Position numbers and translations under genes: made by a program. DNA of 46,454 nt from an uncultured Spartobacteria bacterium (GTDB taxonomy: Bacteria > Verrucomicrobiota > Verrucomicrobiia > Chthoniobacterales > Chthoniobacteraceae), in contig CAIRYQ010000095.1 of the NCBI GenBank assembly GCA_903882875.1, positions 1 to 46,454 of the forward strand, written 5' to 3'. The notes under the pieces are model-generated. The model was not told where the DNA came from and did not search any database. It saw only the letters and a program-made list of their open reading frames with translations. Of the stretch, positions 4,717 through 46,454 are shown piece by piece; the first letter of the stretch is position 1; every line of letters starts with the position of its first letter.

Positions 4717-4972
4717 TTGCGCTTGCAGCGCATGTTCCCCCTGTGGACGCCGAAGCGGGAGCAATGCACCCGATCGAAGAGCGAAGAGCGAAGAGCGCCG
4801 GTGTCCCATGCAGACGGAGCAGAAGGAGCAGGACGGACGCGGCGGTGCGGGAAAACGATGATTTCATAAATCGGGGATTGAATGGCCGTGCATCTTGGCG
4901 GAGATGGAAATCCCGTCTGAGTGAGGACGACCCGAAACCGCACATCATTTTCCCAAGAACCAACCCCGACTT
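4717..4972. other. intergenic leader of the type IV pilus operon
   Basis: No gene recognised. It contains a triplicated GAAGAGC motif at about 4775-4795 and must hold the promoter of the pil operon, but I cannot identify -35/-10 elements with confidence. Confidence 0.4.
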
Positions 4973-29167: not shown

Positions 29168-29327
29168 GTGAATGACGAGTGGCGGGTGGCGCGTGGCGTG
29201 GCAAGTGATTACGGGATGCGCTCGGCGAAATGCTTTCCACGCATATCGGGCATTCTCGATCCGCGCATCCTCCGCAACCGGTGGGCAACGCTTGCCACGC
29301 CCTCGTCACTCGTCACTCGTCACTCCT
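29168..29327. repeat. GAGTGACGAGTGAC-type short repeat, inverted pair
   Basis: GAATGACGAGTGGC near 29169-29184 is mirrored by three tandem GTCACTC units at about 29305-29327 (reverse complement GAGTGACGAGTGACGAGTGAC). The right copy runs into the 3' end of the yggS gene and supplies its last codons (VTSDE, stop). Such heptameric GAGTGAC repeats look like a dispersed intergenic family. Confidence 0.55.
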
Positions 29328-45320: not shown

Positions 45321-45488
45321 TCGGCAATCCTCCCGTGCGAGCCATCCTCCCGAAAAAGGCAGCCCGCGTCCCGGAACTGCGAGCCGGACTCCCGGCAATC
45401 CGAACCGCCCTTCCCGAAGCCCGAACCTGCCTCCCGAAACTGCGAACCGGCCTTCCGGAATCGGGAGCCGGCCTTCTTTTCAGCCCAA
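45321..45488. repeat. degenerate 21-bp minisatellite, eight units
   Basis: Units begin at 45321, 45342, 45363, 45384, 45405, 45426, 45447 and 45468; a rough consensus is CCGGCCTCCCGGAACTGCGA. Units differ at several positions, so the array is old. It is open in several frames and would encode heptads such as AGSQFRE on the minus strand, but no start or gene context supports coding. Confidence 0.8.
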
Positions 45489-45583: not shown

Positions 45584-46352
45584 ATGACACCAGACAACCC
45601 CACCCCAGCACCCTCACCCCAGCACCCTCACCCCAGCACCCTCACCCCAGCCCGGCCCCGGCAAAAAGAAACGCAAATCCCCCGGCATCATCGCCCAGGA
45701 CACCCTCGACGCCATCGCCGTCGCCACCGACTGCTTCCGCACCGCCGACGAAGACCCCAACATCCTCGCCGCCCTCACCGACCGCGAATGGACCGGCCAG
45801 GCCGACCTCGGCCAGTCCATCGCCCGCTGTGGCAGCCTCATCAATGAAATCACCGGCAAACGCAGCGCCCGCACCGCCCGCACCGCCGACGAACTCGCCG
45901 CACGGCAGCAGCTCATCGTCGCCCTGAACCCCATCATCATCGCCGCCCGCGACAAATACCCCAAGGGCTCCTCCGAACGCTCCTCCTACGGCCTCGGCGA
46001 AGACCTCGACTCCGCCGGCACCGCCGACCTCCTCGCCCTCGCCAACTACGCCTTCACCCAGCTCACCGGCACCCCGCCGCCCGACACCCTCCCCGGCCTG
46101 AAGCCCGACGAAATCACCCTCCTCGGCACCCTTTACAGCCAGTACAAAGACGCCGACTGGGCGCAATCCAAAGCCCAGCGCACCGCCGAACAGGCCCTCA
46201 ACCAGCTCCACATCGAGGTGGACGGCACGCTCACCCCCCTGCGCCACAAATTCCAAAACAAAGCCGACCTCGCCTTCCCCCACACCGACAAAGCCAACCG
46301 CATCACCCGCAAATCCCTCCACCTCCCGCCCGACAAACGGGCGACGGACTAA
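45584..46352 (+). CDS. hypothetical protein, start out of frame through a 14-bp repeat (phase-variable or decayed)
   Basis: From about 45588 to TAA 46350-46352 one plus-strand frame is open and protein-like (ADEDPNILAALTDREWTGQA, KYPKGSSERSSYGLGEDL, TLYSQYKDADWAQSKAQRTA). It has no ATG, GTG or TTG except one GTG near its end, and a stop (TGA) at 45585. The only plausible start is ATG 45584 (MTPDNPTPAPSPQ), in a different frame, separated from the body by three copies of a 14-bp repeat at 45603-45644. Adding one repeat unit, or losing two, would join start and body into a protein of about 260 residues with a Pro-rich N-terminus then GPGKKKRKSPGIIAQDT. No conserved domain recognised. Either phase variation, a fixed frameshift, or a sequencing error in the repeat. 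Confidence 0.55.
45603..45644. repeat. 14-bp tandem repeat, three perfect copies
   Basis: CCCCAGCACCCTCA at 45603-45616, 45617-45630 and 45631-45644, with a partial fourth unit (CCCCAGC) from 45645. The unit length is not a multiple of three, so each gain or loss changes the downstream frame. Confidence 0.9.
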
Positions 46353-46454
46353 GTCGCCACGGAATGCACCCCCGTAGCCGCGCCTCGTTTCGCCGTAGCC
46401 GCCGACGGCAGGAGGCGGGCACTTCTCATGGCGGGATTCGGAACATGGAAAGCC
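46353..46454. other. window end, noncoding repeat-like sequence
   Basis: Contains GTAGCCGCGCC and CGTAGCCGCCGACGGCAGGA, resembling GC-rich dispersed intergenic repeats. No gene seen. Confidence 0.35.

Follow-up and report, generated by a model that had tools for sequence, protein, structure and literature searches.

A 14-bp tandem repeat in the leader of an orphan verrucomicrobial gene: a probable out-of-frame expansion and a possible frame switch

Introduction

Short tandem repeats inside coding regions can determine whether a bacterial gene is read as one continuous protein. In the pentamer system of H. influenzae hsdM, as set out in the available part of its report (PMC2651432), the repeat length is not a multiple of three and the number of units sets the reading frame. 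Frame-broken genes have also been approached from whole genomes, and the published criteria for phase variation, as given in the available text, are a cluster of at least five frame-broken homologues, the presence of repeats near the break, and a function that is linked to phase variation (PMC3711429). A third body of work concerns the repeats themselves. Heptamers are over-represented in bacterial genomes such as those of Xanthomonas and Nostoc, and the accessible portion of that study proposes polymerase slippage as their cause (PMC4692102). The open-licence literature yielded nothing on point for 14-bp phase variation, nor for tandem, heptameric or 21-bp repeats in Verrucomicrobia.

The locus examined here lies close to one end of the window, by which is meant the whole stretch of 46,454 nucleotides from an uncultured Spartobacteria bacterium that was analyzed. 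It resembles hsdM in carrying, inside a coding region, a repeat whose unit is not a multiple of three and whose copy number would set the frame. Unlike hsdM, as far as the available text describes that system (PMC2651432), the window has a 14-bp unit in three perfect copies, in one genome, absent from the homologue leaders read and in a gene for an unnamed protein. The locus also resembles the singleton frameshifted genes, or hypothetical pseudogenes, of the GeneTack classification (PMC3711429, available portion), since there is one broken copy, intact homologues exist, and a tandem repeat sits at the break. As a singleton, the break would therefore be placed among pseudogenes or errors by the criteria given in that portion. 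The window gene differs from such pseudogenes in that its body is still intact, so that any decay must be very recent. Finally, it shares with the heptamers of PMC4692102 a quantum of 7 bp, a G-rich sequence that could fold into quadruplexes, and slippage as the proposed cause. Those heptamers, in the part of the study available, are intergenic and of the GGGAATC type, whereas here a 14-bp unit occupies a coding leader and unit sequences vary by place.

Results

The main features of the locus are collected in Table 1. The body frame runs without a stop over its 254 codons to a TAA at 46350-46352, and it is offset by one base from the frame of the ATG. Its nearest upstream stop is a TGA at 45585-45587 that overlaps this ATG, and the first ATG, GTG or TTG within it, a GTG at 46218, comes only after about 210 codons. 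The closest homologue, copy G002:C5, is 62-63% identical to the window copy and begins MTPNEPTPAPQP-, followed by a KKKRKSP motif. Its N-terminus reads MTPNEPTPAPQPAAEPAKKKRKSP; in the window copy, MTPDNPTPAP precedes the repeat and PGPGKKKRKSP follows it. Because the closest homologue has the same start and leader, the ATG at 45584 can be regarded as the true start, and by homology the ATG and the body are one gene. As in a frameshift pseudogene, the conserved start is out of frame and no alternative start is present. The three-unit allele as assembled should not make the full protein, and its product has presumably been lost.

Table 1. Features at the 3' end of the window (positions are those of the whole stretch)
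Feature	Position	Strand	Remarks
Degenerate 21-bp tandem array upstream of the gene	45340..45476	+	About 6.5 copies; lag-21 score, copy register
Conserved start codon ATG	45584..45586	+	Identical start and leader in closest homologue
Frame from the ATG	45584..45847	+	87 residues; about the first ten resemble the family leader
Family body frame	45588..46352	+	254 codons plus TAA; no usable start in its own frame
14-bp tandem array	45595..45650	+	Imperfect unit 45595-45608, three perfect units 45609-45650
Putative G-quadruplex-type motif	45598..45659	-	Pattern scan; G-rich strand of the array
Dispersed repeat downstream	46393..46435		47 further matches in the genome listed; contig end just beyond

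A preliminary description of this DNA had placed the ATG and the body in different frames with three perfect 14-bp units between them, and had calculated that the gain of one unit or the loss of two would restore a single protein. Both the frames and the repeat are confirmed, and the frame arithmetic is correct. One class of unit numbers thus gives an uninterrupted conserved protein, judged from this arithmetic and the homologous start, as would be the case for a phase-variable gene.

Two other ways of reading these frames were weighed. The break might be bypassed by +1 ribosomal slippage at the A-rich stretch past the array, or by a non-standard start in the body frame. An A5 run (CAAAAAG) does lie just past the array, but it is short, and the closest homologue has an A5 nearby too, though it is in frame and has no need of slippage; moreover, no ATG, GTG or TTG occurs in the first 200 codons of the body frame. 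Bypass therefore seems very unlikely. It is scarcely credible that the real gene is instead the long antisense frame at 45642-46454 on the minus strand. That frame is open, and a simple gene caller chose it for want of a start in the sense body. However, the sense frame is the best conserved of the six when compared with the closest homologue (62% identity, lowest dN/dS, no stops), and every antisense frame has stops in one or both of the two sequences, so that the antisense candidate is disfavoured.

The first unit of the 14-bp array contains two mismatches. Exact 14-bp periodicity spans 45601-45651, or 3.6 copies, and TRF called the array at 45597-45651 with a 97% match and a score of 103. 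When a 28-mer of two units was sought with up to two mismatches, it was found in this genome at this array only. Nine exact runs of at least 12 at lag 14 were observed in 479 kb of the genome and none in a single block-shuffle replicate, with some of the nine overlapping heptamer arrays that also match at lag 14. The 14-bp periodicity is not a product of chance. Its unit is not a multiple of three and lies between the start codon and the gene body, which is the arrangement expected of a phase-variable gene. The quadruplex-type motif on the G-rich strand may help slippage; pattern scanning gave 32 such motifs in 446 kb of the genome, six within the window. A hairpin at the array was also considered and was rejected, since shuffled versions of the G-rich strand fold better than the strand itself (z 1.63). 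The folding model used for hairpins presumably leaves out quadruplexes.

Repeats with periods of 7n bp are a feature of the part of this genome that was sampled, which amounts to 446-479 kb of 5.78 Mb (a background of 400 kb on three contigs, plus the window). Here, periods of 7, 14, 21 and 28 exceed others. Among perfect arrays with a period of 7-30 and about 2.7 or more copies, 446 kb held 14, namely 13 heptamers and the 14-mer described above. The corresponding figure for 400 kb of G037, which belongs to the same order but to another family, was one array of period 9, and perfect heptamer tandem repeats were absent from that sample. Over lags 5-35, exact runs of at least 16 occurred at lags 7, 14, 21 and 28 only (479 kb), where one array can count at several lags and a heptamer array also counts at lag 14. 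Unit sequences differ between places in the genome.

Some of these repeats lie within open frames. Eight 7- or 14-bp arrays lie wholly within predicted genes that stay open, as called by a simple codon-usage script that is able to report open genes only. One of them consists of five heptamer copies in the linker of a gene that was matched in all ten genus genomes. An alignment of seven genomes has this array in the genome under study (G000) and its closest relative (G004) and lacks it in five, with all seven in frame. In this lineage, then, repeats of 7n bp do appear, and a linker can accommodate them if the frame is kept. Unlike the linker heptamers, the 14-bp array of the window breaks the frame.

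Perfect heptamer repeats were also noted in the window at 4775-4797 and 29302-29325, and at loci L046, L047, L076, L077, L080, L082, L089 and L092. At the opposite contig end, positions 1-192 of the window hold a 42-bp tandem array of 4.6 copies with a 96% match. Several of the matches to the dispersed repeat at 46393-46435 form close inverted pairs.

The array was compared with the leaders of homologous genes. Ten intact leaders were read as DNA, and those from the class-wide search were compared as protein only. The ten have a stretch rich in Pro or Ser after the start codon and, in most cases, a basic motif; family leaders in general are short, of low complexity and variable in length. At lag 14, the longest exact runs in the ten measure 2-5 bases, compared with 37 in the window. 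The 14-bp array is absent from all ten, and two of them carry other repeats, of 6 and 9 bp, that keep the frame. Since none has the 14-bp repeat, a switch of this kind is not conserved; the repeat is, to judge from the leaders read, private to the window copy.

These comparisons bear on the interpretation that had been offered for the locus, which is that it undergoes phase variation. Under such a mechanism, the unit number would change often by slipped-strand mispairing, ON and OFF cells would both be kept, and the assembly would represent the OFF state. With its start conserved, its body intact and three perfect units in between, the gene does look like an OFF state, and the position of a perfect repeat that is not a multiple of three in the 5' coding leader also speaks for the mechanism. 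Even the short (GACGA)4 array of H. influenzae hsdM switches at a high rate, according to the available part of the report (PMC2651432). The G-rich strand could also stall replication through its quadruplex-type motif. On the other side stand the ten intact leaders that lack the repeat, the presence of only three perfect units, the weak, single-member matches of the family in protein libraries, and the status of the break as a singleton. A cluster of five or more homologues with recurrent repeat-linked breaks was not found among the homologues read. Phase variation is accordingly considered an unlikely explanation. What stands of the proposed switch is that the start and the body form one gene with the repeat between their frames and the body intact. 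The notion of an evolved switch is not supported, given a repeat that is absent from the ten intact homologue leaders, a singleton break, broken family copies of other kinds and the frequency of 7n-bp repeats in the sampled part of the genome. The preliminary description had named homologues that lack the repeat and start elsewhere as evidence against its proposal. Homologues without the repeat were found, but the closest of them starts at the same place.

The body aligns over its full length to homologues, and the further decay expected of a pseudogene, in the form of stops, indels or relaxed selection, was not found in it. The dN/dS ratio is 0.65 between the window and the closest copy and 0.57 for an intact pair of similar divergence, whereas a recent intact pair gives 0.15. 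The selection test is weak because the ratios of more distant pairs are erratic (0.39; 1.25 for the window and G037:C2; 0.82 for G002:C5 and G037:C2). Relaxed decay of the window copy is not supported by these values. Because the body is intact and the units are identical, the frame break is probably recent.

Broken relatives of this gene are common, and the family breaks easily. The order-wide search, in which the best candidates per genome were scored, produced 31 matches at 29 places, and besides the window, seven of the 29 places hold frame-split or one-ended copies. Five have the C-terminal part only (G000:C68, G000:C15, G002:C5:84523, G148:C72 and G018:C31:540120), one has the N-terminal part only (G002:C73), and one is split over two frames by a break in the body (G002:C9). 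Copy G002:C77 is without the N-terminal part, and a contig end truncates G054:C67. In the genome under study three copies were found, none of them intact, the two besides the window copy being C-terminal pieces. The lesions in other broken copies are of other kinds and are not leader repeats. Directly behind the stop codon of G002:C9, a Ser-rich frame in a different reading frame was observed at L039 (9218-9439), and DNA resembling it also lies behind family copies in L044 and L045.

A technical origin of the break must be considered as well. If the array were an assembly or consensus artefact, the true genome would have another unit number and the gene would be intact. Draft misassemblies and coverage dips at repeats were encountered in one other Verrucomicrobial genome, according to the available portion of the report (PMC4210602). 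The present draft is in 129 contigs, and the site is about 0.8 kb from a contig end. However, no ambiguous base is visible, and the array is about 56 bp long. Ordinary short reads exceed such an array in length, which counts against an artefact. This explanation is therefore held to be rather improbable.

The family to which the gene belongs is one of multi-copy, patchily distributed orphan proteins of class Verrucomicrobiae, about 245 residues in length. Counting its own genome, matches were found in at least 6 of 57 related genomes, at least 11 of 213 genomes of the order, and at least 19 of 384 genomes of the class; a draw from the phylum gave matches in at least 3 of 387 genomes, all three within class Verrucomicrobiae. 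These counts are lower bounds because only the best candidates per genome were scored, 7 to 13 of them in the order, class and phylum searches. Searches with eleven family members against Pfam, PHROGs and NCBIfam produced nothing beyond weak hits, each limited to a single member, with best E values of 0.01, 0.0064 and 0.022, respectively. No match was obtained in PADLOC or among PDB sequences, and viral, plasmid and phage collections contained no relative. The family had been called unrecognized, and the libraries indeed supply no name for it. AlphaFold2 models of two sequences were all helix and too poor for a fold search (pLDDT 43, pTM 0.21).

A second kind of repeat precedes the gene. The upstream 21-bp array is one of many that occur before family members, with a unit sequence that varies from member to member. 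An array was scored when the top lag was 21 or 42 with a score of at least 0.5 over 105 bp; 47 places were entered, two of which had too little upstream DNA. Among members that spanned at least 400 bp or included an N-terminus, 37 were testable and 23 had an array upstream, a count that divides into 13 of 13 discovery places, the window included, and 10 of 24 others, the latter being the fair figure. The criterion was reached by 1 of 8 short or fragment places. Control genes, which came from two genomes only, had such arrays in 20 of 575 cases (14 of 273 in G000 and 6 of 302 in G037). Two G247 places with scores of 0.55-0.56 at lag 21 are counted as misses because their score at lag 12 was equal or greater, and L145 is also a miss. 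At locus L137 (G492), the DNA upstream of a family member has a perfect 13-bp array but, by the criterion used, none of 21 bp. Arrays of 21 bp were seen before family genes in L038-L052 and in several of L054-L152.

The suggestion that these arrays are exclusive to this family was rejected, as similar arrays occur elsewhere and before a second family. Lag-21 hits numbered nine in 400 kb of G000, three of them inside one long gene, and four in 400 kb of G037. The second orphan family was reached via one array-bearing control gene and occupies 12 places in G000 (L155-L166). An array lies upstream in 10 of the 12, or in 9 of 11 when the gene that led there is left aside, and one of about 19 copies reaches 0.99 identity at lag 21. 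BLASTP detected no similarity between the two families, and a profile of the first found no member of the second in G000. When the arrays are read as coding heptapeptide repeats, identity by codon phase has no consistent bias. One guess is that the array is a series of binding sites, repeated about every two helical turns, to which the family protein or some other factor would bind.

At this locus the closest relative is G004, which matches the window collinearly as far as 44999, at 88-90% DNA identity, and shows no similarity to it over the next 1,018 bases. No family match was found in the G004 genome, which is 93% complete. Taken together, these boundaries make the gene, with the DNA upstream of it, look like an accessory unit, either gained here or lost in G004. 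G037 has two copies of an array and gene that share 90% identity as far as the stop codon; different genes come next, and then a flank that is 93% identical, an arrangement that may reflect an exchange of cargo. At these loci, L040 (8301-11862) and L041 (7710-11254), the enclosed genes differ and are low in GC, and one has an FRG domain (PDC-S15). Ten proteins encoded behind family members were compared, from seven loci in all. PDC-S15, a candidate defence family, was matched by one of them, which has an FRG domain, and PD-T4-9_A was matched weakly by another (E 8e-07); the rest have no defence match better than E 0.004.

It is conceivable that these pieces form class-wide modules, each with a locus-specific 21-bp array and a fast-evolving protein, that are inserted as a unit, sometimes beside defence-like genes, and that in this lineage are switched randomly by 7n-bp slippage in the leader, the number of units determining which module a given cell has ON. 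Such a scheme would be a long way from the most probable one.

Discussion

Overall, the observation made in the preliminary description is confirmed, and its interpretation is partly supported. The most probable explanation is that a leader repetitive by nature has recently expanded out of frame, a change that may revert; phase variation is the less likely reading. On this view, 14 bp of the Pro-rich leader would have been repeated in tandem, the most likely cause being slippage of the strands in a genome with a tendency to form 7n-bp repeats. The conserved ATG would thereby have been shifted out of frame with a body that is otherwise intact, and the same slippage could in principle reverse the change. 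Nothing shows that the lineage uses the array as a switch.

A frame-broken gene in itself is ordinary. The case nevertheless shows how, in a genome biased toward 7-bp repeats, a leader of low complexity can become a possible frame switch. What was unexpected is the occurrence of 21-bp arrays, each with its own units, before two multi-copy orphan families of Verrucomicrobiae. No description of this pattern was found in the open-licence literature, and the available portion of one Verrucomicrobial genome report describes tandem repeats without such arrays (PMC4210602). These array-headed orphan modules are the part of the finding that is worth following.
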